DNA of 64,000 bases from NCBI RefSeq assembly GCF_008000815.1, contig NZ_CP042806.1:2976001-3040000 (forward strand), in the 5' to 3' direction. Below, piece after piece: positions 28,547 through 46,611 of this stretch. The first letter of the stretch is position 1; each line of letters opens with the position of its first letter. The notes below the pieces were generated by a model, which had not been told where the DNA came from, searched no databases, and saw only the letters and a program-made list of their open reading frames with translations. Source of the DNA: Terriglobus albidus (GTDB lineage: Bacteria > Acidobacteriota > Terriglobia > Terriglobales > Acidobacteriaceae). A program made the translations under genes and the position numbers.

Positions 28547-30307
28547 ATGGTCTGTACTGAGCGGCGAAAGAAGGGTAAGAGGTTTCGATTATCTACTGTG
28601 GCAATCGCACTGGTGTTGCTCATCATGCATCCGGAGATTGGGACTGCTCAGGACAATGCCTCTGTCTATGAGAGCAATCAACTTGGGAAAGATTGGGCAC
28701 GATTGGATGCGTATGGCTCGACCAATGTGCCGATGGACAGTTGGGTCTATCCAGCTCTAGAGCGTTTGGCCAATCTCGGACTGATTCCTTCACAGAGCAT
28801 CTCGATCCGGCCGTGGAGCCGTAATGAGTGCCGGCGCCAATTGCGGGAGGCAGAGTCAAATTATCTGACGATCTCGCCTGGTGACCGCGTGATGGACGAA
28901 GCTGAGGGGTTGATCTCGGACCTGAAACAGGAGTTCGATCTCGCAGCAGAGACACCGGCGGCGGAGGTGGAGTCCATCTATGCGCGGGTGGGTACGATTG
29001 CGGGGCCGGCATTATCAGATGGATTTCACTTCGGCCAGACGTGGCGGAACGACTATGGCCGGCCGCTTGGCCGTGGAAACAGCGCGCTTGCAGGATTTTC
29101 TGTCCGTGCCAATCATGGGCGGTTCTTTTTTTATGATCGCCAGGAGCTCCAGTACGGCCCGGGCAAAACGGCCATCACACCAGCCTTGTCAGAGCTCTTC
29201 AATCAATTGGACATGGCCCCGTTTGGTTCCGCTCCGGTAAATCCATTTCCGGTTTCGCCTGCGACCGGCGCGATTGTGCGTCAACGGCCGATCGAGTTGT
29301 ATGCGGGATTCTCGTTCATGGGAGCGCAACTCTCATTCGGAAAGCAACAGCTTTACTGGGGACCAACCCAAAGCGGACCGTTTTCGTTTTCAAGTAATGC
29401 TGAACCAACCTATAACCTACGGCTGGTCTCCACGCGGCTCCGCGTGGTTCCGTTCCTGAATGGTGCGGTGACCTATCGTTACGATCTGGTCTTCGGAAAA
29501 CTTTCGGGTCACAAGTTTCCGGCACGTCCTTACTTCAACGGGCAGAAAGTGGAATTGACCTTTCTGAATCATCTGGAGGTCGGCTTTACTCGATGGTCAT
29601 TGCTATGGGGTGTGGGGCATCCGATGACGCTCGGAAGTCTGAAAAGAAATCTGGACAGTGGAGTCTCCACCGGAGCGACCTTTTTGTATGGCGACCGGAC
29701 TGATCCGGGTGACCGGAAGGGGGGCTTTGATCTTCGGCTGCATGTGCCGGGACTGGAGAAATACCTTACGATTTACACGGACGGATTTGCCGATGATGAC
29801 CCAAACCCGATCGATGCTCCACGCAGAGCCGCCTGGAGCCCGGGTTTTTATCTTTCGCAGCTGCCTTATCTCCGCCATATGGATCTTCGATTCGAAGTTC
29901 CCAGCTCGATGGAGATGAGTGAGGACGAAGGCGGTACCCGTTTCTTCATCAATAACCAGTACCGTGACGCCAATACAAACAAGGGTTTCCTGTTGGGGAA
30001 CGCCGTGGGACGCGATGCACGTGCCTACGAGGTTTCCACAACGTACTGGCAGTCGGGGCGTACGACCTACACAGCACTCTTTCGCCATGTGCAGGGTGGC
30101 CGCATGTTGCCTGGAGGTCAGTCCATCACGGATGTATCGTTCACAGGTACGTTTGCTTTGTCGAAGGAGTGGAGTGTAACCGCGTTTACTCAATATGAGC
30201 GTTGGCTGATTCCAGTATTGCAGCCTGGTCCACAACGAAACGGAAGTGCCTGGATCACGCTTACCTGGAATCCAAAGGCGGAATCGCTGCTGTCCCGCCA
30301 CAAATAG
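28547..30307 (+). CDS. Capsule assembly Wzi-family outer-membrane protein
   Basis: 586 residues. A basic N-terminus and hydrophobic core (STVAIALVLLIMHPEIGTAQ) give a signal peptide. The body shows the Wzi pattern: an N-terminal helical region (SWVYPALERLANLGLI; WSRNECRRQLREAE) and an 18-strand-type barrel with the family segment FGKQQLYWGPTQSGPFSFSS and LRHMDLRFEVPSS. Wzi in E. coli ties group 1 capsule to the outer membrane; many distant relatives work in exopolysaccharide export. AGGGG lies 4 bases before the ATG. The last three bases, the TAG stop at 30305-30307, are also the first bases of a dispersed repeat, so an insertion may have set the present C-terminus. Confidence 0.85.
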   Translation: MVCTERRKKGKRFRLSTVAIALVLLIMHPEIGTAQDNASVYESNQLGKDWARLDAYGSTNVPMDSWVYPALERLANLGLIPSQSISIRPWSRNECRRQLREAESNYLTISPGDRVMDEAEGLISDLKQEFDLAAETPAAEVESIYARVGTIAGPALSDGFHFGQTWRNDYGRPLGRGNSALAGFSVRANHGRFFFYDRQELQYGPGKTAITPALSELFNQLDMAPFGSAPVNPFPVSPATGAIVRQRPIELYAGFSFMGAQLSFGKQQLYWGPTQSGPFSFSSNAEPTYNLRLVSTRLRVVPFLNGAVTYRYDLVFGKLSGHKFPARPYFNGQKVELTFLNHLEVGFTRWSLLWGVGHPMTLGSLKRNLDSGVSTGATFLYGDRTDPGDRKGGFDLRLHVPGLEKYLTIYTDGFADDDPNPIDAPRRAAWSPGFYLSQLPYLRHMDLRFEVPSSMEMSEDEGGTRFFINNQYRDANTNKGFLLGNAVGRDARAYEVSTTYWQSGRTTYTALFRHVQGGRMLPGGQSITDVSFTGTFALSKEWSVTAFTQYERWLIPVLQPGPQRNGSAWITLTWNPKAESLLSRHK

Positions 30308-30419
30308 AGCATTTCCCTGCAGGTGTCGTGTAGGGTTTCCGCATCTATAGGCGTTTTCCGCAATGAAAACGCCGCTGCACGCCCCTTCCGGAATGCCCAG
30401 CAACAGGAAAAATGCTCTA
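30305..30419 (+). repeat. MITE-like dispersed repeat, copy 1
   Basis: 115 bases, starting TAGAGCATTT and ending AAATGCTCTA. The inner hairpin GGCGTTTTC-CGCAAT-GAAAACGCC is perfect. It sits between the convergent Wzi and PIG-L genes and supplies the Wzi stop codon. One base shorter than the other copies, in the left arm. Confidence 0.88.
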
Positions 30420-30427
30420 GCAGCCAC

Positions 30428-30459
30428 AAAAAGGCCCTTATCCACTTGGGATAAGGGCC
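30428..30459 (-). terminator. Intrinsic terminator of the PIG-L gene
   Basis: Perfect 11-bp stem (30433-30443, GGCCCTTATCC, with 30449-30459) and 5-base loop. Read on the minus strand it is followed by TTTTT, so it ends transcription of the PIG-L gene. Confidence 0.87.
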
Positions 30460-30481
30460 AAGGATGCGAAGCGTGCCTGCG

Positions 30482-33322
30482 TTATTTCGCAGCGGCCAGG
30501 GAAGTCTTCCATGCCGGGTTGCGAGAGGCGCTGATCAGGTTCATGTAGATACGGAATGATCCCGGGATGCCCTCCGGAATCTGCCGGAAGAAGGCGAACG
30601 AGGTATAGATGTATTGGCCCTTCCCGTATTTGGCGTAAAGCAGGCCACCTTTTTGCGCGTCCTGCCCGTCGTCATGCATCTCCGTCAGGGCGGTGAACTT
30701 CGGATCCCAGGTGCGTGCGAAGCCGTGGCCGCGCTCCTCCACCCAGTTGTTGAAGTCTGCGCTGGTGATCTTGTTAGGCCAGTTCAATAGCGGATCGGCC
30801 GAGTCGAGGATGGTTGCCGTGGAGGTCTCATCTACGACCTTCTCGGCGTCCGCCGGCACAGAGATGGCGTATGGACCGTAGTTGTGGTCGTACTCATTGG
30901 TCTGGTACTCCACCACTACAGTGCCGCCATTGTTGACATACTCCAGCAGGCGATTGTTATTGGCCCTCAGGTCAGGGCGGTTGGCATAGGCACGGATGCC
31001 GATGACCACCGCATCGAAGCCGCTCAGATTCGCAGATGCAAGATCTCCAGCAGAGAGTTGCGTCACCTGCACGCCGGCATCGCTGAGCGAGGCAGGAACA
31101 TCTTCTCCGGTGCCCATGATGTAGCCGACCTTTAGACCGGCAGGCGTCTTCAAATCCACACCCGTCGCACGATAGGTTGCCGGGCGGTAGGACGGATAAG
31201 GCCGCAGCCCGGGCCACGTAACCGTGGTAAAGCCTTCCTTGTACTCTTTACCGGCATACTTCGCGATAGCGGTAATGGTGTAAGGTTTCAGTTTCACGTT
31301 TTTGGGAGTGACGTCGAAGGATAGGTTCTTCTCGTCGCCGTCACGCGCGGTGGAAAAGGATGCTGAGCGTGGCGACGAGGTCCAGCCCTCGGGCAGGTTC
31401 AGCGCAAGCTCTCCTTCGGCTGGACCCTTGACGTTGCTGCGCAGCGTCACTTTGAGGGTGAGCTTTGCGTTGTTGGAAGGGATTACACCTGCTTCCGGAG
31501 AGACCAGCACCGAGATGGCCGGCGCGATCATCAGTGGCTCCGGAACGGGACCGATGCCATTGATACGGTGTGTTGTCTGTACCGTCCCTGTCACGCTTGC
31601 CTGCACGCCGTGGAAGCTGTACTGCAGGCGCGCAGTGACGGGGTAGGGCATTGTCGGAAGTCCGAGATAGGCCGGATTGTCCAGGTTGTAGTAGGACTGT
31701 TCCAGCGTGGGCCGGCTGAAATAAGGCTTGGTGATGGGTTCGTTGTCGGGGACAACACCCTCTACCGTCAGATCGTCTGCCTGTCCGGCATCCATGGAAG
31801 CAGCGGGTTTTCTTTGCGCAGACCACTTCCAGTCACCGGAATCGCTGAGGACTGAGAGATCGTCAATGGCTACGTTCTGTGTTCCCTGATTGGCAATGTG
31901 GACGTTGACCGAGACCGGTTGGCCGGGGGTAGCGAACTGATACGTTAGCGTGTTGCCACGTAGTTCTCCAAAGGGCCCCATGCGCGGCTTTTCGCCCACT
32001 GGATTGACGCTGGCGACCAGCATGACGCCGAGGGACTGAGACAGCGCTTCGTTGAACTGATCTTCCTTGATAGAGAGCTCGTGCAGGATGTTGTACTTTG
32101 CCGCTTCAGGAAGGCTGCTGCGCGTGATCTCGTTCCGGAGAGAACGCGTCTTCTCCAGGCCGCGAGCGAGTGCAGCTGCGGACCGCGATGGGTTCGCGGC
32201 ACTGTAGCTCTCGGTGGCTTCGCTGACGATCTGTTGCAATTCCTCGAGACCTTTGCGCCACGCTGCGCGGTCGGCGACAGGGGCGTAGTCCGCGATACCG
32301 GAGAGCGAGATGTCGATCCCGTCAAAGAATGTCTTCTCCGTGGCAGGCAGCGTATCGCCGCTCACACGCGAGGCATAGAGATGGTAGGGCGAGTTGAACT
32401 GCGCGGGCAGGGGAATGCCGACGCCGTCGTTCTGTGACTTCTGGTTAGCCAGGCCCTCACGAGCGACCGCGAGATAGCTGCGCCCAAGGAGGGCGTTGTA
32501 CTCTCCTTCGGGAACTTCGAGGGTCTTGGAGGGAACCCCTTCAATCCACGAGCCGGTGACGTAGTTCTTGAAGCGCACAGGCTCCCACTTGCCGGTAGCG
32601 TAGTCGAAGATGCCCTGTTTGGTGACGCGGGCGAAGGGAACGCGCGCGTAGACCTTCAACGGAGACCATGGTTTCAGGCCTGCGGCTATCTGGTCCGGAA
32701 AGACATTTGGATCGCCGGCGAGCTTGTAGGCCTCCTGCGCCATGACACCGGCGGTCTGGTGGTGCCCGTGGCCGTCAGAGACATTGCCGGCGAAGACGCT
32801 GGTAATGACGAGCGGACGGCTGATGCGCACCTGGCGTACGACGTCGTAGAGCACGCGATCGTGGCCCCAGTTCTTCAGCGCTTCATCCAGCGTTTTAGAA
32901 AAGCCATAGTCGGCAACCCGGGTCCAGTTCTGGTGCACCCCATAGTAGGATCCCGCGGCGAGCAACTCATGCGTACGCATGATGCCGAGCTGATCCCAGT
33001 AGTCCCCGGTCATGACGTTCTGGCCGCCTTCTCCACGGTTGAGCGTAAGCAGCGTGGTATCGGCGCCCTGGCCGCGGCTTTCATAGGCCAGCATGCCGCC
33101 GTCTTCATCGTCAGGATGAGCGACAACCATCATCAGGCTGGCGCGAGTCTTCAGTTTTTGCAGCGACTGCCACAGACCGGAGGCGCCACGATCCAGGGGA
33201 AGGGGATAGGCCTCCGGAGAGAGATAGCGGGGCTGCGGACCTGCCTGCGCCGTAGCCGCCATTGGAGAGAACGCAAGCCATGCGGCCAGGGAGTAGGATA
33301 TGCAGTGCTTCCACGTCGTCAT
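30482..33322 (-). CDS. Exported PIG-L deacetylase with long C-terminal extension
   Basis: 946 residues with a signal peptide (ending MAATAQA). The PIG-L/LmbE domain covers about residues 55-280, with the zinc motif MVVAHPDDEDGG near 66-77, RGEGGQN, and the second metal His in GHGHHQTAG. Such enzymes remove N-acetyl groups from GlcNAc-type sugars. The remaining 650 residues contain Ig-like beta-sandwiches (PVSVNVHIANQGTQNV; LKVTLRSNVKGPAEGEL) and a C-terminal glutamine-amidotransferase-like fold (DAVVIGIRAYANRPDLRANN; GGTVVVEYQ). The architecture is seen in other Acidobacteriota and points to deacetylation of a periplasmic or external amino-sugar polymer. It is divergent from a ROK regulator that may control it. 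Confidence 0.9.
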   Translation of the reverse strand: MTTWKHCISYSLAAWLAFSPMAATAQAGPQPRYLSPEAYPLPLDRGASGLWQSLQKLKTRASLMMVVAHPDDEDGGMLAYESRGQGADTTLLTLNRGEGGQNVMTGDYWDQLGIMRTHELLAAGSYYGVHQNWTRVADYGFSKTLDEALKNWGHDRVLYDVVRQVRISRPLVITSVFAGNVSDGHGHHQTAGVMAQEAYKLAGDPNVFPDQIAAGLKPWSPLKVYARVPFARVTKQGIFDYATGKWEPVRFKNYVTGSWIEGVPSKTLEVPEGEYNALLGRSYLAVAREGLANQKSQNDGVGIPLPAQFNSPYHLYASRVSGDTLPATEKTFFDGIDISLSGIADYAPVADRAAWRKGLEELQQIVSEATESYSAANPSRSAAALARGLEKTRSLRNEITRSSLPEAAKYNILHELSIKEDQFNEALSQSLGVMLVASVNPVGEKPRMGPFGELRGNTLTYQFATPGQPVSVNVHIANQGTQNVAIDDLSVLSDSGDWKWSAQRKPAASMDAGQADDLTVEGVVPDNEPITKPYFSRPTLEQSYYNLDNPAYLGLPTMPYPVTARLQYSFHGVQASVTGTVQTTHRINGIGPVPEPLMIAPAISVLVSPEAGVIPSNNAKLTLKVTLRSNVKGPAEGELALNLPEGWTSSPRSASFSTARDGDEKNLSFDVTPKNVKLKPYTITAIAKYAGKEYKEGFTTVTWPGLRPYPSYRPATYRATGVDLKTPAGLKVGYIMGTGEDVPASLSDAGVQVTQLSAGDLASANLSGFDAVVIGIRAYANRPDLRANNNRLLEYVNNGGTVVVEYQTNEYDHNYGPYAISVPADAEKVVDETSTATILDSADPLLNWPNKITSADFNNWVEERGHGFARTWDPKFTALTEMHDDGQDAQKGGLLYAKYGKGQYIYTSFAFFRQIPEGIPGSFRIYMNLISASRNPAWKTSLAAAK

Positions 33323-33405
33323 GTGTGAGCCATTCCTCGGCGAGCGAACACAGGAGGCCGCCCGCCGATGAGTGATGTTGGATTGTCCTTGTTGATATCA
33401 CCCAC

Positions 33406-33433
33406 TTGCGACTTTGTAAAGTTTGTTTATAAT
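33406..33433 (+). promoter_or_regulatory. Promoter of the ROK gene, near-leaderless
   Basis: TTGCGA (33406-33411) and TATAAT (33428-33433) are 16 bases apart. The ATG at 33448 is only 14 bases after the -10 box, so the leader would be about 8 bases with no ribosome site. ACTTT-GT-AAAGT at 33411-33422 lies in the spacer and could be an operator. Confidence 0.62.
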
Positions 33434-33447
33434 CTGCCTACCTGCCT

Positions 33448-34662
33448 ATGTCCTCTACGCTTGCCAATTCGCGTGAGCCGCGTATCTCTCGTCCGGCAAA
33501 TCTGCGCCGTTCGAACAATCGGGCCCTTCTTCAACTGGTACGGGAGAACTCCCCCTGTTCCCGTGCTGATCTTGTACGCATGTCAGGGTTATCTGCTCCG
33601 ACCGTCACTGCCGCGATTGCGGATCTGGAGGCGTTGGAGCTGATCGAATATCTCGGGGAGGGAATCTCCTCCGGCGGGCGTCCTGCGGAGCTGCTTCGCT
33701 TCCGTCCGGAGCATGCCTACGTCGCCGGCGCCGACATTGGAGGAACGCGTTTGCGCATGATGCTAGCCGACCTGGACGGTAGGCCGGTGGCACAGTGGGC
33801 ATGCAAGCTGGGAGCGCGGGAGAAGGATCCCGTTTCGATCTGCCATCTGCTTCGCGGTGGACTCACGCAGATGTGTGCGCAGGCAAAGGTCTCCCTCAAG
33901 AAGGTAAAACATCTGACCGTGGGTGCGCCTGGTGTGACCGATGTGGCTCGCGGCGTCGTGCTATCTGCGCCGAACCTGACTGGATGGGACGAAGTTCAGT
34001 TGCGTGCTCTGCTGGAAGATCAGCTTGGGTTCGAGGTGATTGCAGAGAACGACACGAATCTCGCCGCCGTGGGGGAGCACTGGCACGGCGCCGCTGAGAA
34101 CGTCGACGACTTTGTGTTTATCGCCATGGGAACCGGTGTCGGCGCGGGCATCTTTCTTGGTGGCCAGGTCCATCATGGCTCTGCGTGGAGCGCCGGCGAA
34201 ATCGGCTATCTCGGCGTTCCTGGAATGCCGCGTGAACCCCTGGAGATGCACCGCACTGGCCAACTGGAGAGTGTGATCGGCGGAGCCGGGATTGAGGCTC
34301 AGTGGCGGGAGGAGCTGGACCGTGTAACCCGCGTTGACGCTGAGCTTCGTGCCCTTCGAGCTTCGCAGATTTTCGATCGAGCTGCCTCCGGCGATGTACA
34401 GGGGAAAGCCGTACTGAAGAACACGGCGCGCATACTGGCCGATGCCATTGCGACGATCACATTGCTCTTCAACCCATCACTGGTCGTCATGGGGGGAGGC
34501 ATTGGATCGCACCTGGCGTTGTGTGAAGCCGTGGGTGGTGTCCTCGCGGAGAGCGACTTCCCGCATCCGCGTGTGCGATGTAGTGTGCTAGGGCCCGAGG
34601 CCCAGCTCTATGGTTCCGTGGCTCTGTCACTTCAAGCCATGGACAGCAAGCTGCTGGGTTGA
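33448..34662 (+). CDS. ROK-family transcriptional regulator (NagC/XylR type)
   Basis: 404 residues. A winged helix at about 22-80 (RADLVRMSGLSAPTVTAAIA) precedes a ROK sugar-kinase-like fold: DIGGT at 96-100, VGAPGVTDVARG, the catalytic-region END, and MGTGVGAGIFLGG. Most ROK proteins have a zinc site with HxH-x-x-C-x-C-x-x-x-x-C; here the region reads MHRTGQLESVIGG with no cysteine, so zinc is probably absent. NagC-like members repress amino-sugar or xylose genes and are released by the sugar or its phosphate. Position suggests control of the divergent PIG-L deacetylase and perhaps of the receptor gene 110 bases downstream. The message seems to be almost leaderless. Confidence 0.92.
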   Translation: MSSTLANSREPRISRPANLRRSNNRALLQLVRENSPCSRADLVRMSGLSAPTVTAAIADLEALELIEYLGEGISSGGRPAELLRFRPEHAYVAGADIGGTRLRMMLADLDGRPVAQWACKLGAREKDPVSICHLLRGGLTQMCAQAKVSLKKVKHLTVGAPGVTDVARGVVLSAPNLTGWDEVQLRALLEDQLGFEVIAENDTNLAAVGEHWHGAAENVDDFVFIAMGTGVGAGIFLGGQVHHGSAWSAGEIGYLGVPGMPREPLEMHRTGQLESVIGGAGIEAQWREELDRVTRVDAELRALRASQIFDRAASGDVQGKAVLKNTARILADAIATITLLFNPSLVVMGGGIGSHLALCEAVGGVLAESDFPHPRVRCSVLGPEAQLYGSVALSLQAMDSKLLG

Positions 34663-34770
34663 ACAATGCAGTAGCAGTAACGGAGGCCGCGCTGGAGTAG
34701 TCGCCAGCAGGCCATCCGGGGACATGATTCAAATTTCAAGGTCAGTTGCTGAATGGGGGAGGTCAAAACT

Positions 34771-37659
34771 ATGAGAACTCATCGTGTTCGATCAGTTCTG
34801 CTAGCGTTTGCCATGCTTGGGCCTGTTGCTCTCACAGGACCTGCGGCATATGGACAATCGCAATCCATCAATGGAACGATCCGCGGTCGTGTCGCGGATC
34901 CGAGCGGGGCAGCCATCGCGGGGGCGACGGTCACTGTAACGAATGCCTCAGTAGGATTTACGCGCACCGTAACTACTGGCAACGATGGTTATTATGTGCT
35001 GGTCAACTTGCCACTGGGTGAATACACCGTCAATATCACGTCAACCGGGTTCTCCCCTCTGAAAGTATCGGGCGTGAACCTCAACGCCGGTACTGAGGCG
35101 GTTATTGACGGCGACCTCAAGGTTGGTACGGCGGATACAGCCGTGACAGTTGAGGCCTCCATCGCTTCCATCGATCCGACCAATCTGAATGTGCAGCGTA
35201 CTCTCACTCAGACCGAGATTGAGAACGTTCCGCTGACATCGCGTAATCCGTACAACTTCATCGTCTTCCAGCCCGGTGTATCGGGGCACCCGAATCCAGA
35301 GCTTGGTATTCCTCGTACGTTGAACACCAATGGCCTGATGGATCGCATCAACTACCAGATGGACGGGATGGTAAATACTGAGGCCGACCGTACTGGTCTT
35401 CGTCTGTTTCCCATCGGCAACATCTTCGTCAAGGAAGTGCAGACAGTCTCGAACTCCTTCGCGCCTGAGTATGGATGGACGACCGGCGATGTCTACAACG
35501 TCATCTCGAACTCCGGAGCGAACGATTTTCATGGGACATATCAGTTCATCAAGCGCTGGGTCGACGCGACGGCGTATCCGCTGCTGCAGAACAAGGTGAC
35601 GAGCCCGACGAAGCCGAATCTGATTCTTGAAGATCACTCTTTCAACTTTGGCGGCCCAGTCAAGAAGGACAAGCTCTTCTTTTTTGGATCGTATGAGCAC
35701 GTACTGCGTGGCAGCCCGGCGCCTGTAACAATCACGGCAGCAAATGCCACGGCGATCGGTCTGGCCGCGTCGGAGCTTGTACCCGCTCCCGGCCTGTTGC
35801 ACGGCACCTTTGCGGACGTTCGCACCGATTACAACATCAACGAGAAAAACTCCATCTTCCTGCGTTACAACTACTTCCGGAACTCGTTCCCGTTCAATAC
35901 GCAGGTCGGCGGGATCAACGCGACCAGCGCTGGAGTGGACTTCAAGGACCGTGCGCATGTCTTCGGGCTTCAGTGGATCTCCACGATCTCGAACAGCCTG
36001 GTGAATGAGTTCCGCTTCTCAGTGCCATTCCGTTCCAACACCCACTTCGCCGGACCCAGCACGGGGAAAGGACCGGCGATCGTGATCTCCAACATCGCCG
36101 CCTTTAATGGAAGCAGCAACGCAGGAGATCAGTACAGCGATAAACAGCCCTCAGGCTCCGAAAACATCAGCTACGTTCGCGGACCGCACACGATCAAGGC
36201 CGGCTTTGTCCTGTCGCAATTGCAGAATCGGCAGCGCCTGGTCTCTTTCAACCGCTACACCTTCGCCACAGTTCAGGCCTATCTGAACGCTAAGAATGGC
36301 ACCGATCCCTACGGCTACGCTAACTATGCCTCGCAGACGGACCTCAATGGTATCGGCTATACCTCGCTGTTTTATGGCGGGTATGCGCAGGACACCTGGC
36401 AGCTTTCGCCTCGCCTGACGGCCGTGTATGGCATTCGTTACGATCGTTTCTCTTCACCCCAGGCGAATTCCAGTGCACTGTATCCGGATTCGCGTAAGTT
36501 CAACGTGCCCAACACCAACTTCGCTCCGCGCCTGGGTTTCAGCTATCGCGCAACCAACACGACGACGTTGAAGGTCTCCGCCGGAATCTTCTACCAACAG
36601 ACTCCAACCAACCTTTGGTTCAATGCCTTGAACCTGGACGGCTCGAACCGTACCTCCTCCTTTACCTATATCGGAGGGGCCAGCGGTACTCCGGGACGCC
36701 CCGCTTTTCCCACAATTCCTGCTTCCGGTTCAGGCGCCACGCAGAACGTGACGACCATCAATCCGAACATCAAGAACGAGTACACCTGGAACGTCAACGC
36801 ACAGGTGACCCAGCAGCTCACGAATCATATCTCGGCGACGATTGGCTATATCATGTCAAACGGTCGCAATCTGCCATGGATGCATAACATCAACGTCATC
36901 CCAACGGGAGCAACGCTGGCTGACGGCCGTCCAATCTTTAGCGCCCCGGTGAACTCGTCGACCCGGTATGATCCTCGCTTTGACCAGGTAAACCGCGTTG
37001 AGTCCGGTGCGAACTCGAGCTTCAATGCCATGTTCACCAACGTGACGATGTCGCCGATGCGTGGCATGCAATTCAACGCCAGCTACACCTGGTCGCACGT
37101 CATCTCCGACGCTCCTGAGGTCAATACCTTTGAGCAGAACCTTGGTGTTTCGAATACGCTGAACCGGAAATTCGACCGCGGCAATTCTTCGGTAAATCGG
37201 CCGAATGCATTCAATTTGTCTGCCGTGCTTGAACCGCAGTTCAATGTCAGTAACCGTGTAGGCCGTGAGATTGCGAACCACAATATGCTCGCGATTCTCG
37301 GCAATATCTCTTCCGGAGATCAGGCGAATATTCTTGCCAGTAATGCCACCTTCTATTTCGATGGCTCAACCGGCAGTGTCGGGCGCCCTTCCTTTGTAGG
37401 TAGAAACTCGGCTCGCGGACCTTCGATCACCCAGATCGATGCCCGCTATACGCGCACCTTCCCGAAGATCAAAGATCGTTTCGCGCCAACCTTCCTTCTG
37501 GAGGCGAATAACCTCCTGAATTCGAACAATGTAAGCACACTTGCTATCACGCAGCCGGTCAATGCCTCGACTGGCATCGCGAATGGCGCCACGACAACGA
37601 CCCGCACCACCGTTCTGGAACAGCGTATCGTTCAGTGGGGCGCGGCGATTCGTTTCTAA
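34771..37659 (+). CDS. Oar-type TonB-dependent outer-membrane receptor
   Basis: 962 residues from the ATG at 34771, 8 bases after GGGAGG; an ATG six codons upstream overlaps that site and is rejected. Signal peptide ends near AAYGQ. The carboxypeptidase-regulatory-like domain (GRVADPSGAAIAGATVTVTN) is followed by a plug (VPLTSRNPYNFIVFQPGVSG; NYQMDGMVNTEADR), and a barrel ending AAIRF. It is about 240 residues shorter than the other large Oar protein at 24723, mostly in the barrel loops. Substrate unknown; the ROK regulator before it and the ArgH-permease-GH63 genes after it are the only clues. A hairpin terminator separates it from the lyase gene. Confidence 0.94.
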   Translation: MRTHRVRSVLLAFAMLGPVALTGPAAYGQSQSINGTIRGRVADPSGAAIAGATVTVTNASVGFTRTVTTGNDGYYVLVNLPLGEYTVNITSTGFSPLKVSGVNLNAGTEAVIDGDLKVGTADTAVTVEASIASIDPTNLNVQRTLTQTEIENVPLTSRNPYNFIVFQPGVSGHPNPELGIPRTLNTNGLMDRINYQMDGMVNTEADRTGLRLFPIGNIFVKEVQTVSNSFAPEYGWTTGDVYNVISNSGANDFHGTYQFIKRWVDATAYPLLQNKVTSPTKPNLILEDHSFNFGGPVKKDKLFFFGSYEHVLRGSPAPVTITAANATAIGLAASELVPAPGLLHGTFADVRTDYNINEKNSIFLRYNYFRNSFPFNTQVGGINATSAGVDFKDRAHVFGLQWISTISNSLVNEFRFSVPFRSNTHFAGPSTGKGPAIVISNIAAFNGSSNAGDQYSDKQPSGSENISYVRGPHTIKAGFVLSQLQNRQRLVSFNRYTFATVQAYLNAKNGTDPYGYANYASQTDLNGIGYTSLFYGGYAQDTWQLSPRLTAVYGIRYDRFSSPQANSSALYPDSRKFNVPNTNFAPRLGFSYRATNTTTLKVSAGIFYQQTPTNLWFNALNLDGSNRTSSFTYIGGASGTPGRPAFPTIPASGSGATQNVTTINPNIKNEYTWNVNAQVTQQLTNHISATIGYIMSNGRNLPWMHNINVIPTGATLADGRPIFSAPVNSSTRYDPRFDQVNRVESGANSSFNAMFTNVTMSPMRGMQFNASYTWSHVISDAPEVNTFEQNLGVSNTLNRKFDRGNSSVNRPNAFNLSAVLEPQFNVSNRVGREIANHNMLAILGNISSGDQANILASNATFYFDGSTGSVGRPSFVGRNSARGPSITQIDARYTRTFPKIKDRFAPTFLLEANNLLNSNNVSTLAITQPVNASTGIANGATTTTRTTVLEQRIVQWGAAIRF

Positions 37660-37710: not shown

Positions 37711-37723
37711 TGCAGAAGGCATC

Positions 37724-39205: not shown

Positions 39206-40616
39206 GAAGAACCCGCAGCTTGTACGCGGCCTTTCCACCGCAGCGGCTACCAGCGCCAACATCATTGATATGGTGGGCGTGGGCCCGTTCATCACGCTCC
39301 CCCTGATCGTGACGGCGATGGGCGGCCCGCAGGCCATGCTGGGATGGATCCTGGGAGCAGTCCTCTCCCTCTGCGATGGTTGCGTGTGGAGCGAACTTGG
39401 CACGGCCTACCCTGAGGCGGGTGGGTCCTATGCCTATCTGAAACATATCTATGGGAAGAATGGTGCGGGCAAAGTCTTTGCCTTTCTCTATGCCTGGCAG
39501 CTTCTTCTTTCCGCGCCGCTCTCGATCGCCTCAGGCTGCATCGGTTTTGCGCAGTATGTCTCTTGGTTTGCGCCATCCGCCTCGCGGCCAATTGCCAGCG
39601 GTCATCTCTTTCATGCTCCGATCATCTTCAGCGGCCAGACCCTGATAGCGATGAGTGCCTGCGCCATTGCTCTGGTGGCGCTGTATCGGCCGGTTGCGCA
39701 CGTAGGCCGCATCGCCCGCGTGACGGGCGTCGTTGTCGTCGCGACGCTTGTCGCTGTCATCCTGGTCGGCTTTACACACTTCTCTCCGAGCCTGGCTTTT
39801 TCATTTCCTGCCGGAGCCTTCCATCTGGATGCGGCCTTCTTCTATGGACTCGGCGCCGGTCTGCTGGTCTCCGCCTATGACTACTGGGGCTACTACAACG
39901 CGTGCTTCCTGGGAGCCGAGGTAGAGAAGCCGGAGAAGACCATCCCCAGGGCAGTGCTGGGTTCTATCGTCATTGTCGGTACCTTGTATGTGCTGATGAA
40001 TATCTCGGTGCTCGGTGTGCTGCCCTGGCAGTCAATGATGGCGCTGACGCATGATGCCGCAGCCCGGCAGTATACGATGGCAGCCTTTGTGCAGATGGCG
40101 TTTGGCTCGCACTCCTGGGCACACACTGCGGCCTCGATTGTGGTGGTGCTGATTGCGACAGCGTCGCTGGCGTCGGTCTTCGGTCTGCTCCTGGGCTACT
40201 CGCGTATCCCCTTTGCCGCCGCACAGGACGGCAATTTTCCCGCCATCTTCGGGCGGGTCCATCCACGTTTCCACATCCCGGCCATCTCTCTCTTTACGCT
40301 GGGAGGCATCGCGATGTTGCTGTGCCTGCTGCGGCTGCAGGAGGTGATCGCATCGCTGGTCATCATCCGTATCGTCTTCCAGTTCCTGATGCAGGGAATT
40401 GCGGTGATGGCGCCGAAGCATCGCGCAGAAAGGCGAAAGCAGGGCCGGTTCCGGATGCCGCTGTATCCCTTGCCTGCGCTGGTTGCTCTGGGAGGATTTG
40501 TCTTCATTCTCTTCTCACGGCAAAACTTCGCGTCAGAACTAAAGCTTGCCGGTATCGTCGCCGTCAGCGGACTGCTGGTTTACTTCGTTCGCTCCCGTGT
40601 CGCTGCCCGCTCCTGA
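39198..40616 (+). CDS. APC-family amino-acid permease
   Basis: 472 residues starting at a GTG whose first 8 bases overlap the end of the lyase gene (GTGGCTGA), which implies translational coupling; longer readings add a polar tail without sense. About twelve transmembrane helices are visible, starting with the APC motif region MVGVGPFITLPLIV and SELGTAYPEAGGSYAYLKHI, then YDYWGYYNACFLGAEVEKPEKTIPRAV, typical of the family's helix 6-7 region, and IPFAAAQDGNFPAIFGRVHP. It should take up an amino acid or polyamine with protons. Coupling to an ArgH-type lyase suggests that the two share a substrate or product. Confidence 0.92.
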   Translation: MAEKNPQLVRGLSTAAATSANIIDMVGVGPFITLPLIVTAMGGPQAMLGWILGAVLSLCDGCVWSELGTAYPEAGGSYAYLKHIYGKNGAGKVFAFLYAWQLLLSAPLSIASGCIGFAQYVSWFAPSASRPIASGHLFHAPIIFSGQTLIAMSACAIALVALYRPVAHVGRIARVTGVVVVATLVAVILVGFTHFSPSLAFSFPAGAFHLDAAFFYGLGAGLLVSAYDYWGYYNACFLGAEVEKPEKTIPRAVLGSIVIVGTLYVLMNISVLGVLPWQSMMALTHDAAARQYTMAAFVQMAFGSHSWAHTAASIVVVLIATASLASVFGLLLGYSRIPFAAAQDGNFPAIFGRVHPRFHIPAISLFTLGGIAMLLCLLRLQEVIASLVIIRIVFQFLMQGIAVMAPKHRAERRKQGRFRMPLYPLPALVALGGFVFILFSRQNFASELKLAGIVAVSGLLVYFVRSRVAARS

Positions 40617-40626
40617 AGCTGGAAGG

Positions 40627-40742
40627 TAGAGTATTTTCCCTGTAGGCGTAGAGTAGGGCTTCGATATCTATGGGCGTTTTCCGCAACGAAAACGCCGCTG
40701 CACGCCCCTTCCGGGATACCCAGCAACAGGGAAAACGCTCTA
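40627..40742 (+). repeat. MITE-like dispersed repeat, copy 2
   Basis: 116 bases, TAGAGTATTTTCCC to GGGAAAACGCTCTA. The ends have two substitutions relative to copy 4 and the inner hairpin is perfect. It lies 11 bases after the permease stop and 25 bases before the GH63-like start, so it is inside a co-directional gap. Confidence 0.9.
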
Positions 40743-40766
40743 GAATTCGGTCATCCGGAGATGACC

Positions 40767-42104
40767 ATGAACCTTCGCCCTGATCGCCGCAGCTTCCTCA
40801 CGGGCCTTGCCGCTCACAGTCTTGTGTTCTCTAAAGTTGCGACAGCAGGTGCGCAGCGGGCGCCCAATGGTGCCGGCGACAGGGAACTTCTGCTTGGCTA
40901 CTTCGCGAAGAATGCACGGGCGCTGCTACGTGAACCTGCTGGCTTATTGAAGTATCCGAGCATCTCTCCCAGCCTTCCCAAGGCAGCATATTCTTCGGAG
41001 CTGTGGGACTGGGACACACTTTGGACGGCGCGCGGCCTGTTCGCGATCGCGAAGCAAACCTCGGATAACTCATTGCGGCAGGCAATCGTCGCCCACGCCC
41101 AGGGAAGCATTGCGAACTTCTTCGACCATCAATCGAGCGAAGGCCGTATTCCCATGCTGATTAAGCTGAACGATGCTGATCCGTTGCACTGCCTGAGCGG
41201 CAGCCGGCCTCATAAGGAGAACCAGGCCAAACCGGTGCTTGCACAATTGGCGTTGCTGGCTACGGAGGAGAGCGGCGATGCCGGGTGGTTCTCTCCGTTC
41301 CTGGAGAAGCTGCAGCGTTTCTATGATTCCTGGACTGCGGACAACACGAGCAAGGTGGGCCTTCTGGTCTGGGGCGACGATGTCGCCATTGGCAATGACA
41401 ATGACCCCACAACCTTCGGACGGCCATTCTTCTCCTCCGCGAACCTGTTATTGAACTGCCTCTATTACCAGGACCTGAAAGCTGCGGCAGAGATGGCACG
41501 CAGGCTTGGGAAGGAAGATACCGCTTCGCGATTTGCGTCGAGTGCTAAGCAGCTTGGCGAGGCAGTGCAGCGGCAGTGCTGGGATCCGCGCGACAAATTC
41601 TTCTATACGGTCGATGTGCAGTGTCAGGACCGCCGCGCCGAGCTGATTCCGAACATCAAGCGCGGTATGGATATGTCCTGGAGCACAATGCCAATCCGCA
41701 TCCAGACCTTCACCGGCTTCCTGCCGCTGTGGTGTGAGCTCGCAACCAAAGAGCAGGCCGAAGATCTCCGGCAGCACTTCCTGAACCCCGCGACTTTCGG
41801 CGGTAAGTATGGCGTGCGCACCTTATCGCGCGCGGAGAGTATGTATTCGCTGGCAGCCAGCAGCAATCCCAGCAACTGGCTCGGACCGGTATGGATTATC
41901 GCGAACTACTTCGCGTGGAGTGGCCTGCAACGATATGGATTCACTCACGAGGCGCAGACACTGGCGGCAGTAACAACGCAACTGCTGGCGCAGGACCTGC
42001 GCGTAAACGGATCGCTGAATGAATATTACGACCCCGATACAGGCAAGGCGTTGAGTCACAAAGGCTTCATGGATTGGAACCTGCTCGTGCTTGAGATGCA
42101 GTAG
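40767..42104 (+). CDS. Tat-exported GH63-like glycoside hydrolase
   Basis: 445 residues from the ATG at 40767, 6 bases after GGAG; an ATG two codons earlier touches that site. Twin-arginine signal DRRSFLTGLA at 6-15. The fold looks like the (alpha/alpha)6 barrel of GH63/GH37 relatives, with ELWDWDTLWTARGL near 73-86, VWGDDVAIGNDND, NWLGPVWIIANYF, and SLNEYYDPDTGKALSHKGF near the C-terminus. In the family an Asp in the WDWD segment and the Glu of NEYYDP are the catalytic pair. Members act on glucosylglycerate, mannosylglycerate, trehalose or alpha-glucosides. Length is close to the shorter single-domain members. The substrate is not resolved. Confidence 0.82.
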   Translation: MNLRPDRRSFLTGLAAHSLVFSKVATAGAQRAPNGAGDRELLLGYFAKNARALLREPAGLLKYPSISPSLPKAAYSSELWDWDTLWTARGLFAIAKQTSDNSLRQAIVAHAQGSIANFFDHQSSEGRIPMLIKLNDADPLHCLSGSRPHKENQAKPVLAQLALLATEESGDAGWFSPFLEKLQRFYDSWTADNTSKVGLLVWGDDVAIGNDNDPTTFGRPFFSSANLLLNCLYYQDLKAAAEMARRLGKEDTASRFASSAKQLGEAVQRQCWDPRDKFFYTVDVQCQDRRAELIPNIKRGMDMSWSTMPIRIQTFTGFLPLWCELATKEQAEDLRQHFLNPATFGGKYGVRTLSRAESMYSLAASSNPSNWLGPVWIIANYFAWSGLQRYGFTHEAQTLAAVTTQLLAQDLRVNGSLNEYYDPDTGKALSHKGFMDWNLLVLEMQ

Positions 42105-42117
42105 AGCGACAGCACAG

Positions 42118-44868
42118 TTATGACTTCGGGGCTTTCTTCTGGAACGTGACGCGAAGACCGCCAAAGATATTGATGGGTGCGCCGGGCGCCAGGAAGGTGG
42201 AGTGGCGGGTCGGGTACTGTGTCTCGCCCTCGAAGTTGATGGAGGCAAATGGGCGTCCAACGAACGCTCTGTTGTTGTCGAACGGAGTTCCACCGAGCTG
42301 TGCCGCCGTTGCGTAGTGCGTGTCAAACAGGTTGTTGATCTGCGCGAACAGCTCAAACTGCGGTGAGAAGGCATACCTTGCTCCGACGTTGGCGATGCCG
42401 TATGCATCCGTACGGCCGACGCCGAGGTAGTACGTTCCATCAGGCTGGTGCAGGTTGTTCTCATTGCCGCGAGCATACGACCCTGAGGTGGAGACGACAT
42501 TGAAGTTCACTGTCAGCTTGCGGGTGGGTTGGTAGTCAGCATTGAACTTCAGAATGTGTGACGGAGTCTGCGGCAGCGTGTTACCGGCACTGATCTCCTG
42601 TTCGCCTTCAATGCCGTGCGCTCCGTCGATAGCCGCCTCATTCGAGCTGTTCGCGCTGCCGTCGACCACTTGTGGTGTACCGTAGGTTGCCTGCAGGAAT
42701 GTGTAGTTGGTCGAGAAGGTGAAGGGATGGAGCTGGTAGGTGATGCCGGCCTCCGCTCCCTGGCGGATAGTGCGTCCGAAGTTGGTGAAGTAGCCAAACC
42801 CAGTGGCGGTGGATGAGACGAAGAGCAGATCGTCGTAGTTAGTGCCGCGGAAGAAACCGGCATTCCACTGCAGACGGTTTTCGTTCTTGCCACGGATGCC
42901 CGCTTCGAAGGTACGGCTGACGACTTGTTTCAGCGGCGGATCACTGACCATGGCGTTGGGAAGGCGGCAGGGAAAGCTAGGATCAGCGCAGCCCAGCTCG
43001 GTTGAAGTTGGAGCACGGTTGCCTTCGCTGTAGTTCAAATACAGCATCGCTAACGGCGAGATACGATAGGTCAGACCGGCGGACGGATTGAAGCGTTGGA
43101 AGGTGTACTTCCCAGTCAGCGTTCCGCGCCCGGCGGAAGGCGGCAGCCGGTCAAGATTATCAACGGTGGCATGGTTATAGCGGCCGGCAAATGTGAAGGT
43201 GAACTTCGACAGCAAAATGGTATCCGTGGCGTAGAAGCTGGGAACGTTGACCGTACCATGCAGGTTGGCACGGGTGTCGACCGGTAAACCGTCTGCGTCG
43301 GTCGATCCATCGGTATAGGTCGGAATGGTGGTAAAGCTTAGTCCATCGGTGTTCAGGTAGGCGAACTGGGAGATCTGCGTGTAGCTGATGTTACTGCGAT
43401 CCCAGGAGACACCTGCGGCGAGCCGGTTGCGGGCCATGCGATACGACAGCAGGCCTGAGAGGCCGTAGGCGTTCTGTTTGTTCTGCGTATAGGTGTCAAT
43501 GCCCGTGCACTTCTCTGAGGGCTCGTCCTTCAGCAGACCCTGCGCAATGCAGCGCCAATAGGGGAAGGGCTGCTGCGTGGCATTGCTGGCTCCAGTAGGG
43601 AAACCGGTATAACCGTTCGTGCTGAGAATGTTCTTCTCGGCGGTGCTCAGCGTATAGAGCGACTGATCGAAGGAGTCGTCGTTCAGGTCTCCGTTGAAGG
43701 TGTTGGCGCGGATGTAGCGGTAGTAGGCATTCGCCGAGAGTGTCAGCTCGTTGTTCACCTCGTGCGTCACATTGAAGGTGAGTGAGGGCGCATGATTCCT
43801 CGTCTGGTCGGGAATGGTGTAGACGCTGCTGTAGTCCTTGTTCAGATTGCGGAAGTCCTGTGTGCCATTCCCGCTAAGGTTGTTGATGGCATACACACCG
43901 GAAAGCGATAGCGTCGTCCGGCCGAACATCCATCCAAGCTTGGCGAACGACTGCTTCACGTCAGAGGGAGAGTACTTGCGCCAACCGTCTTCGTGATACA
44001 GATTGCCGGCGACGTACCAGTTGAAGCCGCGTGAAGTGAAACCACCCCATTCACCTTCGACAGCGCGGCGTCCGAAGCTGCCGCCCATGGACCTTACGGT
44101 GAGGCCGGCATTGGCGATGCCGTCTTTGGTACGCATGGCAAGAGCTCCGCCCAAAGAGTTGAGTCCATACAGCGGATTTGCACCTGGGATCAGCTCGATG
44201 TCCTGTACTGCAACCTGGGGAATCAGATCCCAGGAGACGACATCGCCGAACGGCTGATTTTGCCGCACTCCGTCCAGATAGATCGAAAGCCCCTGAGGTG
44301 TACCCAGGAGCGGGGAAGCCGTGTAACCACGGTAGTTCACATCCATCTGATAGGGGTTGCCCTGGTTCTCGCTGATGTAGATGCCGTTCACTCGCTTGTT
44401 AAGTCCATCGCCGATATTCAGCGAGTTGACGTCAGCGAGCTGCTGCGCCGAAAGGTTCTGCACCGGGACGGGGACGGTCGAGGTGTCCGTATCAGCCTGT
44501 CCGATCGGCGTCTCAGAGAAGACTGTGACCGAGGTGGAGAGGGACGATAGTGTCAGGGTGACAACGCGTTCCACAACCTCTGAAGAGCGTACGTCGATCA
44601 CAACGCTCTGCGTTGCGAATCCATTGCGGTAGAGCTGGAGCTTGTAGCTACCGAAGGCAAGTCCTGTGAACATGTGCTCGCCACTCGCAGAGGTCTGGAA
44701 CTGCCGCACCGATCCCGGACCGCTCAGGGTGCCGGTCACGGCCAGGCCTGAGCCTGACGTATCTTTCACCACCAGGTGAAGTCCCCCGGAGTCACGAGCC
44801 TGTGCCACTGCTAAAACATGGAGAAGAGCAAGCAATAAACCGCAAACAAGACCGGGCAGACGACGCAT
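42118..44868 (-). CDS. TonB-dependent receptor of conventional type
   Basis: 916 residues. Signal peptide ends at VLAVAQA. A short carboxypeptidase-regulatory-like domain (LHLVVKDTSGSGLAVTGTL) is followed by a true plug domain (DVNSLNIGDGLNKRVNGIYI; IELIPGANPLYGLNSLGGALAM) and a 22-strand barrel (YLNYSEGNRAPTSTELGCA; FELFAQINNLFDTHYAT). The plug signature GANPLYGLNSLGGALAM is that of siderophore and metal-type receptors, unlike the Oar proteins. Cysteines in the extracellular loops (GCADPSFPCRLP) probably form a disulfide. It does not end in an aromatic residue (KKAPKS) but shortly after a normal last strand (LRVTFQ). AAAGG precedes the ATG and a GC-rich hairpin lies just before it. Divergent from an ECF sigma factor, possibly its regulator. 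Confidence 0.92.
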   Translation of the reverse strand: MRRLPGLVCGLLLALLHVLAVAQARDSGGLHLVVKDTSGSGLAVTGTLSGPGSVRQFQTSASGEHMFTGLAFGSYKLQLYRNGFATQSVVIDVRSSEVVERVVTLTLSSLSTSVTVFSETPIGQADTDTSTVPVPVQNLSAQQLADVNSLNIGDGLNKRVNGIYISENQGNPYQMDVNYRGYTASPLLGTPQGLSIYLDGVRQNQPFGDVVSWDLIPQVAVQDIELIPGANPLYGLNSLGGALAMRTKDGIANAGLTVRSMGGSFGRRAVEGEWGGFTSRGFNWYVAGNLYHEDGWRKYSPSDVKQSFAKLGWMFGRTTLSLSGVYAINNLSGNGTQDFRNLNKDYSSVYTIPDQTRNHAPSLTFNVTHEVNNELTLSANAYYRYIRANTFNGDLNDDSFDQSLYTLSTAEKNILSTNGYTGFPTGASNATQQPFPYWRCIAQGLLKDEPSEKCTGIDTYTQNKQNAYGLSGLLSYRMARNRLAAGVSWDRSNISYTQISQFAYLNTDGLSFTTIPTYTDGSTDADGLPVDTRANLHGTVNVPSFYATDTILLSKFTFTFAGRYNHATVDNLDRLPPSAGRGTLTGKYTFQRFNPSAGLTYRISPLAMLYLNYSEGNRAPTSTELGCADPSFPCRLPNAMVSDPPLKQVVSRTFEAGIRGKNENRLQWNAGFFRGTNYDDLLFVSSTATGFGYFTNFGRTIRQGAEAGITYQLHPFTFSTNYTFLQATYGTPQVVDGSANSSNEAAIDGAHGIEGEQEISAGNTLPQTPSHILKFNADYQPTRKLTVNFNVVSTSGSYARGNENNLHQPDGTYYLGVGRTDAYGIANVGARYAFSPQFELFAQINNLFDTHYATAAQLGGTPFDNNRAFVGRPFASINFEGETQYPTRHSTFLAPGAPINIFGGLRVTFQKKAPKS

Positions 44869-45015
44869 GACACCTTTGGCCGAGCAGGGGGCCCGGCGGT
44901 AACTCTGGATTTTTATGTTGCTGCTTGGATATTCCGGACGAAGGCCTTTTGTTCAGTGTTTTCGGAAAAGTTTTTCAAAGCGACGGAGATGGATTGTTGT
45001 CTGCTGCGTCTCTCA

Positions 45016-45131
45016 TAGAGCATTTCCCCTGTAGGTGTAGAGCAGAGCTTCCGCATCTATGGGCGTTTTCCGCAATGAAGACGCCGCTTCACGCCCCTTC
45101 CGGAACACCCAGCAACAAGGAAAATGCTTTA
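45016..45131 (+). repeat. MITE-like dispersed repeat, copy 3
   Basis: 116 bases, TAGAGCATTTCCCC to AAATGCTTTA. The inner stem keeps pairing through one wobble (GAAGACGCC). It ends 14 bases before the ECF sigma start, so it forms most of the leader of that gene or separates it from its old promoter. Confidence 0.88.
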
Positions 45132-45145
45132 ATGAGTGCATTCCC

Positions 45146-45715
45146 ATGAGCTCTACCTTCAACCAGTCGAGACTCGCGATCCTTGCTCCTGTCATAGCAG
45201 GGCAGGGGAGAGCGCGCGCCGCTGAGGCTGAGGTGCTTGCGATGTTCGACCTGCACCACGCGGCGTTGTTGCGCTACGCGGTTTCATTTGGCATTGCCGT
45301 GCAGGATGGGGAAGATGTAGTGCAGGAGACCTTCCTGGCCCTCTTCCGGCATCTGCTGGAAGAGAAGCCACAGGATAACCTTCGTAGCTGGCTCTTTCGC
45401 GTGACCCACAACCTGGCCTTGAGACGCCGTGGAGTACACCGCCGCGAAGTGTTTGAAGCAGAGAACATCTCTCTGGAGCGCACCGATCCCGCTCCCGGTC
45501 CCGAAGAGACGTTGCTCTTCAGCGAACGAAAGCTCCATTTGAGTCGCGTGTTGCAGGCAATGCCTGCCACCGATCGTGCCTGCCTGCAGCTCCGCGCTGA
45601 GGGGTTGCGGTATCGTGAGATCGCCGAAGTGATTGGAATCTCCCTCGGTTCGGTAGCAGCGGCAGTAGCGCGTTCCATTGAGAGGCTGGAGCGATCGGAG
45701 ATGAGCCGTGGGTGA
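45146..45715 (+). CDS. ECF-type RNA polymerase sigma factor
   Basis: 189 residues from the ATG at 45146; longer readings would translate the repeat. Region 2 is seen as FDLHHAALLRYAVSFGIAVQ and QDGEDVVQETFLALFRHL, and region 4 as AMPATDRACLQLRAEGLRYR with the HTH EIAEVIGISLGSVAAAVARS. Region 3 is absent as in ECF factors. No clear ribosome site stands before this ATG, but a five-codon frame (ATGAGTGCATTCCCATGA) ends in an ATGA overlap with it, so translation could be coupled. The anti-sigma gene overlaps by 8 bases downstream. Likely controlled by sequestration at the membrane; a divergent TonB receptor is a candidate target. Confidence 0.92.
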   Translation: MSSTFNQSRLAILAPVIAGQGRARAAEAEVLAMFDLHHAALLRYAVSFGIAVQDGEDVVQETFLALFRHLLEEKPQDNLRSWLFRVTHNLALRRRGVHRREVFEAENISLERTDPAPGPEETLLFSERKLHLSRVLQAMPATDRACLQLRAEGLRYREIAEVIGISLGSVAAAVARSIERLERSEMSRG

Positions 45716-46493
45716 TAACGTGCACCTTTCGCGGGAAGATCTCCTCCTATTACAGGATGGAGAGTTGACAGCTGCCGAGGCGGCCGCTGCGGAGCGTCAC
45801 CTTTCTGATTGCGAAGTCTGCCGCGCGTTGAAGCTTAGAACGGAACAGACCTTTGCCGCAGCTTTGGCGGCGATTGCCGCCGAGACTTCGAAGCTGCCGG
45901 ATTACCGGCGCAACGTATTGCAGCATCGTATGGTGTCGGCAAGGCGGCGGCCATGGACGATTGGCTTCGCCACTGCGGCGGCGGGTTTATTGGTGGCTGC
46001 TGGGCTTGGAATTTCGCTGCATCGGAATCATCAGGCGATTGTCCCTTATCTGGAAGATCGTCCCGTCCCGAATCCGCAACTGACCCCCGGCGCCGTCCGC
46101 GTCATGGCCCTTGGCGAGGTGTGCGGTGAGAAGGACGACGATCTCGACCCAGCAGTTCCGGCAGCGACAGAGCAGGTTGTCTTTGCCGAGTACCACGTAC
46201 CGCAACAGCAGCGCGGCAAAGAGTTCCAGGTGGACTACCTGATCAGTCCACAGCTCGGCGGAACAGCAGAGATCCGAAACCTGTGGCCGCAACCCTACAG
46301 CACGATGTGGAACGCGCAGGCAAAAGACATGCTGGAACGCAGACTGCATGGGATGGTTTGCAGTGGAACAATGACCCTGGAGCAGGCGCAGCAGGAACTT
46401 GCAGGCGACTGGATCGAGAGCTACAAACGGGAGTTTAAAACGCAAGCCCCGCTTCGTGTGGAAGCAGGGCTTGAACGTCCTTTGTTGCCCTAG
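45708..46493 (+). CDS. Membrane anti-sigma factor with zinc-finger (zf-HC2) domain
   Basis: 261 residues from a GTG overlapping the sigma gene. The cytoplasmic part has LLLLQDGELTAAEAAAAERH and the HxxxCxxC motif (His31, Cys35, Cys38 in RHLSDCEVC), the zinc-binding anti-sigma domain. One transmembrane helix spans about 83-104 (WTIGFATAAAGLLVAAGLGI), and a periplasmic tail of about 155 residues follows with no known fold. It should hold the preceding ECF factor until signalled or cleaved. The TAG stop at 46491-46493 is the first triplet of repeat copy 4; the natural tail may once have been different. Confidence 0.88.
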   Translation: MGDNVHLSREDLLLLQDGELTAAEAAAAERHLSDCEVCRALKLRTEQTFAAALAAIAAETSKLPDYRRNVLQHRMVSARRRPWTIGFATAAAGLLVAAGLGISLHRNHQAIVPYLEDRPVPNPQLTPGAVRVMALGEVCGEKDDDLDPAVPAATEQVVFAEYHVPQQQRGKEFQVDYLISPQLGGTAEIRNLWPQPYSTMWNAQAKDMLERRLHGMVCSGTMTLEQAQQELAGDWIESYKREFKTQAPLRVEAGLERPLLP

Positions 46494-46606
46494 AGCATTT
46501 TCCCTGTAGGTATAGAGTAGGGCTTCGGAATCTATGGGCGTTTTCCGCAATGAAAACGCTGCTGCACTCCTCTTCCGGGATACCCAGCAACAGGGAAAAT
46601 GCTCTA
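46491..46606 (+). repeat. MITE-like dispersed repeat, copy 4
   Basis: 116 bases with perfect 17-bp inverted ends (TAGAGCATTTTCCCTGT at 46491-46507 and its complement at 46590-46606). It lies between the convergent anti-sigma and YVTN genes, supplying the anti-sigma stop codon and ending 5 bases before the YVTN stop. Likely the least altered copy at its ends. Confidence 0.92.
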
Positions 46607-46611
46607 AAGGC

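Follow-up and report, generated by a model that had tools for sequence, protein, structure and literature searches.

Four copies of a short repeat in a 64,000-nucleotide stretch of the Terriglobus albidus chromosome (the window; G000:C1:2976001-3040000, within a single contig of 6,405,582 bases in the 6.4-Mb genome G000) are very probably non-autonomous DNA transposons, or miniature inverted-repeat transposable elements (MITEs), of the IS630/Tc1-mariner kind. The repeats are 115-116 bp long, have inverted ends, carry a target duplication when compared with empty sites and belong to a dispersed high-copy family. Their ends match those of IS630 elements and their target is TA; a cognate transposase was not found in G000 itself with the searches described below. 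A search for repeats of at least 40 bp in the window returned this family only. Its four copies, all on the same strand, and their parts are as follows.

30305..30419 (start 30304/5), + strand: element copy 1, 115 bp; its initial TAG serves as stop codon for the open reading frame (ORF) 28547-30307
30350..30373: central palindrome of copy 1, with 9-bp arms and a 6-base loop
40627..40742, + strand: element copy 2, 116 bp, between an ORF ending at 40616 and an ORF starting at 40761
40673..40696: central palindrome of copy 2
45016..45131, + strand: element copy 3, 116 bp, ahead of an ORF listed at 45059-45715; the start given for that ORF falls within the element
45062..45085: central palindrome of copy 3
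46491..46606, + strand: element copy 4, 116 bp, with perfect 17-bp ends; its initial TAG serves as stop codon for the ORF 45708-46493
46491..46507, + strand: left terminal inverted repeat of copy 4, including the TA
46537..46560: central palindrome of copy 4; the palindrome is the best conserved part across 57 copies in G000
46590..46606, - strand: right terminal inverted repeat of copy 4, including the TA

The lengths, coordinates and common strand agree with an earlier note on this DNA, as does the similarity of about 80-90% given there: aligned over 115-116 columns, the other three copies are 81-91% identical to copy 2. The two ends of each copy are nearly complementary and begin GAGCATTTTC, the left end reads TAGAGCATTTTCCCTGTAGGTGTAGAG and the body is about 112 bp. 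The perfect 17-bp ends claimed for copy 4 are there. The start motif TAGAGCATTTTCCC claimed for all copies holds for copy 4 only, since copy 1 lacks one T, copy 2 reads TAGAGTA and copy 3 TTTCCCC. The placement of all copies in gaps is nearly right, except that two copies, 1 and 4, start within the stop codons of the ORFs listed above and supply those codons. The element is non-coding as far as can be seen from the mechanical ORF list, in which no frame was assigned as its own. The claim that the window holds no transposase stands for PF13358, PF01797 and PF01609, the three families searched for in the whole genome.

Mobility is directly visible in relatives. Over 19.8 kb of the window compared with them, breaks in the alignments fall at the elements. 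All 10 aligned rows (three relatives) lack the element and have a single TA where G000 reads TA-element-TA: the copy 1 site is empty in G008 and G001, those of copies 2 and 3 in G008, G001 and G010, and that of copy 4, which reads TAA, in G001 and G010 (the rows leave out copy 1 in G010 and copy 4 in G008). The element is thereby shown to be mobile and to insert at TA with duplication, as the earlier note had supposed; loss from the relatives is a less simple reading. The family has been active since the split from the near relatives. Duplication of a gene or segment, the other origin considered for the copies in that note, is ruled out by the single gains of ~114 bp between otherwise collinear flanks.

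Two further copies, A and B (12959-13073 and 16003-16116 of L099, one of the sampled stretches of G000), are each common to some relatives and missing in others. Copy A is found in G000, G008 and G001, and its empty site in G010 reads AA; copy B is found in G000 and G010, and its empty site in G008 and G001 reads TA. Two of these three further empty rows thus show TA and the third AA (G018 is too diverged there to be read). The two patterns conflict on one tree without excision, repeated insertion or exchange. G001 has insertions of its own near copy 1, where two units stand in tandem, and near copy A. Such tandem units, with a period of 114-115 bp, may arise through insertion of a new copy into the TA that borders an older one. 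Tandem arrays of the same period also occur at G001:C42:15898-16237 and G001:C50:419173-419515. L099 in addition holds, at 17131-17309, a second dispersed repeat of ~175-180 bp with many 80-84% matches in G001, G008 and G010.

The family is far from confined to the four places in the window, which was a further possibility raised by the earlier note. The end pattern TAGAGCATTTTCCCTGTAG, with at most 3 mismatches, has 446 matches in G000 and 1 in the reversed control. A sample of 60 roughly evenly spaced 20-kb stretches and the window (L088-L147 and the window; 1.264 Mb) contains 64 distinct copies at E<1e-3 and its reversed sequence 0 (nhmmer, 33-copy model); within the window the model returns just the four known copies. 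By extrapolation, the whole genome is estimated to hold ~324 copies. Among the sampled copies, 57 of the 64 are full length, with a median pairwise identity of 84.5%. Relatives of the element with similar ends measure 43 bp (L128:17780-17822) and 154 bp (L090:8739-8892). A search of the sample for larger composite elements with the same ends gave 10 end pairs more than 120 bp apart (at most 2 mismatches), which were taken as chance or neighboring copies. A tandem repeat of the heptad AACTGGC is among the commonest 14-mers of the sample.

Within the genus, the element is matched in 4 of 19 genomes (G000, G001, G008 and G010) at E<=1e-4, and the other 15 have no match at this threshold. The 17-bp end, with at most 2 mismatches, occurs in 80 of 200 genomes of the family, 12 of which have at least 10 matches. 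Outside the family, the end matches none of the listed genomes more than 3 times in a draw of 396 genomes from the phylum; the reversed control reaches 2. At least 80 records from named genomes have a match; of those listed, 2 come from outside the acidobacteria and 78 from within (Terriglobus albidus, Granulicella mallensis, Bryocella elongata and metagenome bins). Of 20 places inspected in other genera, 17 hold an element 114-118 bp long whose tips are of the same kind, the element of G079 measures 143 bp, and G130b and G102 are without a clean element.

The assignment to the IS630 kind comes from the tips. PF13358 (IS630) is found in 60 of the 200 family genomes at E<=1e-10, and 31 IS630 loci were examined, 28 of them newly fetched (some cut by contig ends) and the others being L031, L033 and L228. 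In 8 of the 31, an exact TAGAGCR...YGCTCTA pair 950-1150 bp apart encloses the DDE domain; the same pair occurs in 0 of 318 control windows of G000. Two of these 8 TA-bounded loci belong to the genus of the window. The exact 12-bp tip TAGAGCATTTTC is present at one or more ends of L199, L228, L194 and L203, the last lying outside the 8 since its tips are 1722 bp apart. The left end of the element is similar to IS630 ends such as TAGAGCAGTTTCATCGTAGGTGTATAG, and several IS630 ends share its inner (A)GGTGTATAG; the inner part of the 17-bp end of the element differs from the IS630 ends. The only genomes of the genus that a transposase profile built from five tip-matched proteins matches strongly are G015 (E 4.9e-84; an IS630 element of 1024 bp with the tip TAGAGCATTTTC) and the element-bearing G008 (E 1.1e-55; tips TAGAGCAAAG/TAGAGCAGAA), both of whose copies carry TAGAGCA tips. 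The same profile finds a fragment in G016, and weak matches only in G000 and G001. The relationship to IS630 proposed in the earlier note is thus supported by the TA borders and the TAGAGCR tips, some with the exact 12-bp sequence, in the family and in the genus; the transposase that moved the element is a putative one. Ends without a near partner in low-copy genomes (L215-L227), considered as ends of hidden insertion sequences (ISs), yielded no convincing larger element.

The target is oriented with respect to the element. In the 57 full-length copies (the 7 incomplete ones of the 64 were dropped), oriented by the element, the right TA is followed by a purine (A or G) in 50, and the position after that holds A or T in 40; the left flank differs, with G favored two bases out. 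Among copies with an intact TA, a purine follows on the right in 46/52 and a pyrimidine precedes on the left in 25/41 (p=0.003). The difference persists in the 36 copies away from stop codons, again with intact TA (28/33 and 12/21, p=0.03), where the second base out is A or T in 24/33 on the right vs 4/21 on the left (p=0.0002). For 96 distinct full copies in records of other genomes, the counts are 69/82 for the purine and 49/77 for the pyrimidine; these come from 80 of 120 stretches picked by an exact end match, which favors intact ends.

With gene calls from a crude codon-usage script, an overlap of more than 20 bp with a predicted gene is seen in only 3 of the 64 sampled copies. As many as 19 begin exactly in the stop codon of a co-oriented upstream gene, and the reverse arrangement is seen in 3. 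Stop codons account for 8.6% of intergenic TA-purine sites, a share computed on sequence that includes the elements, and p is about 1e-6 for 19/64. In an independent count, made on frames of 100 codons or more that run into the border, the left border is in frame in 22 of 52 cases in G000, vs 4-5 in the other frames, and the right border in 6 vs 4-8. In records of other genomes, the left border is in frame in 25/86 (6-7 in the other frames) and the right border in 17/86 (2-6). Placement at stop codons therefore repeats beyond G000, and the orientation bias is strong in G000 only. Read as bare sequence regardless of frame, the relatives show TAA or TAG at the sites of copies 1 and 4. As both ends of the element begin with TAG, insertion into a TAA or TAG stop codon restores a stop, and the TAG tip would make such insertions nearly harmless. 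This, together with the preference for TA-purine targets, may be why many copies sit at stop codons.

REPINs mobilized by RAYT transposases are short palindromic repeats present in hundreds of intergenic copies. The oriented target brings to mind an element of this type, moved through single-stranded DNA by a Y1 (HUH, RAYT-type) transposase, in which the apparent TA duplication would be made of a cleavage site WYTA beside the element and of the element's own TCTA end; this end does resemble the target reversed. Y1_Tnp matches are present in all four element-bearing genomes of the genus, and the element is present at 5 of 22 Y1 loci (L038, L041, L042, L049 and L056). These 5 copies in 72.2 kb are, however, close to the 3.7 expected from the density in G000, and for all transposase loci together the figure is near background as well (149.6 kb, with a copy at 8 of 46 loci vs 7.6 expected). 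The arrangement typical of REPINs, a RAYT gene flanked by the repeat, was thus not seen at the Y1 loci. Another palindrome, GGCTTCAGCCGTGCC, accompanies 5 of the 22 (L048, L050, L052, L054 and L056; L046 has one weak match) and is unmatched at 16, so that only part of the Y1 loci are accounted for by it. The orientation of the copies relative to replication (53/89, p=0.09; origin at ~1.0 Mb and terminus at ~3.8 Mb from the skew) is not significant. REPIN/RAYT elements are not known to make a target duplication; the present element bears TA on both sides, yet its target preference is oriented. Transfer by a Y1 transposase would also leave the long, near-perfect inverted ends with IS630 tips unexplained, and is considered quite improbable. 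The GGCTTCAGCCGTGCC/GGCTGAAGCC palindrome, with 47 matches (at most 2 mismatches) in the 1.264 Mb of G000 and 9 in the reversed sequence, is probably a separate REP family.

The interior of the element contains the central palindrome. In G000, its arms deviate from the consensus in 2.0% of positions vs 13.0% elsewhere and 9-11% in the inverted ends (57 copies), which makes them the best conserved of 89 block placements. An alignment of 22 elements from nine genomes and five genera includes 13 of the 20 places in other genera (the seven others being G120a, G079, G130b, G102 and three further G172 copies). In 19 of the 22, the central stem is 9-11 bp long with a loop of 5-7 bases; in L112 it is 6 bp, and in G120d and G132a the search for the best stem picked another place. 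When 19 palindromes (17 distinct) are excised, pairing holds in 98% of cells and changes are two-sided in 21; neither number, nor the covariation score, was reached in any of 500 shuffles, and slid partners pair in just 46-54%. The remaining two covariation measures, of five in all, are no higher than in shuffled data: the number of pairs with a two-sided change (4, attained in 309/500) and the number of pair types (10, attained in 123/500). The outer four pairs change jointly between groups of genera (GGCG/CGCC, CAGC/GCTG and a few GCCG), so that few independent events underlie the covariation counts. The conserved core either aids movement or is kept after insertion, and a dyad protein site and a hairpin are not distinguishable from these paired changes.

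Such conservation could also denote a structured RNA or a regulatory 3'-end element under selection, whose hairpins act in the mRNA at stop codons and for which mobility is secondary. The fold z-scores of the four window copies (-3.3 to -5.2, single strand), the pairing of the central helix and the frequent position at stop codons of co-oriented genes would fit this proposal. Nevertheless, inverted repeats fold whatever their purpose, so that good folding is expected of any of them; a dyad protein site would yield the same paired changes, two covariation measures are no better than shuffles, and Rfam has no match at E<=1 in positions 28000-48000. Moreover, each window copy is absent in two or three close relatives, which leaves no conserved host role at these places. 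This is the least probable of the explanations considered.

Several observations weigh against an IS630-type MITE. An IS630 element with the tips of the repeat was not found in G000 by searches with PF13358 and with the transposase profile. The element-bearing G010 (a draft, 94% complete) has no PF13358 match at E<=0.001. At E<=1e-10, PF13358 is also unmatched in G115, G132, G152 and G172, which have 19-45 end matches and are four among the 12 genomes of the family in which the end matches at least 10 times (G115 is 85% and G152 77% complete). Conversely, G015 has a tip-matched IS630 element and no match to the repeat. Apart from the tips, nothing in the interior of the repeat notably resembles the IS630 loci. 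An oriented target is not what a symmetric two-ended reaction would lead one to expect, and the left TA is intact in 41/57 copies vs 52/57 for the right one, the left often reading TG. Finally, neither G120a (118 bp, perfect 17-bp ends) nor G079 folds with the central palindrome.

The two IS630 (PF13358) copies of G000 itself, 99.8% alike, are ruled out as cognates by their differing ends, which after the TA read TTGATTCCTG and TTGCTTCCTG. The lack of a tip-matched IS630 in G000 and of a PF13358 match in G010 would suit a MITE that is moved at TA by another transposase family, for instance of the IS5 type or some other DDE enzyme. This is unlikely, given that the tip and the TA border match IS630 elements; the families searched were PF13358, PF01797 and PF01609. 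IS5/IS4-type DDE_Tnp_1 (PF01609) was discarded as the mobilizer, as it was not found in G001 and G008, both of which have many copies. G000:C1 carries ten DDE_Tnp_1 matches of identical score in 361-codon frames (e.g., 305720-306172 and 5852372-5854132), which suggests a recently multiplied IS. A cognate transposase in the same genome is usual for an IS630-type MITE and is not required, and its absence from G000 does not exclude past mobilization.

On the preferred reading, an IS630-type MITE, a transposase of the IS630 group that is now lost from G000, or undetected there, would have been supplied in trans, binding the tips and moving the element by cut and paste. The central palindrome may be a further cis-acting site or structure that aids mobility, and this is the weakest step of the scheme. 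It is conceivable, though doubtful, that it serves as a third transposition site, a dyad for transposase or host factor or an extruded hairpin, which orients the IS630 reaction and selects TA-purine stop codons; little confidence is placed in this idea because G120a and G079 do not fold with the palindrome. If true, an IS630-type element would distinguish its own ends and land safely in stop codons. More generally, the repeat is a high-copy, patchily distributed mobile element of acidobacteria, which can mark strains and is the source of some intergenic DNA and of altered stop codons. With empty and filled alleles and a tip-matched IS630 in the genus, it offers a clean system for asking why the internal palindrome of a MITE is more strictly preserved than the ends.

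No paper on this element was found among the top-ranked matches in the open-licence full-text literature, the scope of the search, which excludes subscription papers. In the portions consulted, PMC10969869 lacks the terms 'IS630' and 'Acidobacteri', PMC5900883 the terms 'MITE' and 'IS630', and PMC3910553 the term 'transposase'; PMC3733652, as far as its available part goes, treats palindromes with tyrosine transposases, acidobacterial ones included. Compared with REPINs, the element is likewise palindromic, intergenic and present in hundreds of copies, and differs by having TA on both sides and IS630 tips. Its placement at stop codons is not in itself new: in the part of PMC3049150 available, the BOX repeats of pneumococcus supply the stop codon of the upstream gene in 36 of 58 gene overlaps. 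BOX repeats are, however, modular and linked to ISSpn2 (PMC3049150). ERIC and Correia/NEMIS, described in the accessible part of PMC2229807 as TA-bounded MITEs of ~100-200 bp, with inverted termini and a duplicated target, are by that description alike in size, inverted ends and TA borders and belong to other hosts; the better conservation of the core than of the ends is measured for the present element only. The closest parallel is RUP of pneumococcus, for which the same part of PMC2229807 gives 107 bp, 108 copies, insertion at TA and ends like those of IS630-Spn1. The present family is thus new and of a known kind, with an oriented target and a conserved core that are unexplained. It resembles RUP in its similar size, TA insertion and IS630-type ends, and differs from it in sequence and host; the supposed IS of RUP resides in the same genome (PMC2229807, in the part available), whereas IS630 elements matching the tips of the T. 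albidus repeat are found only in other genomes.

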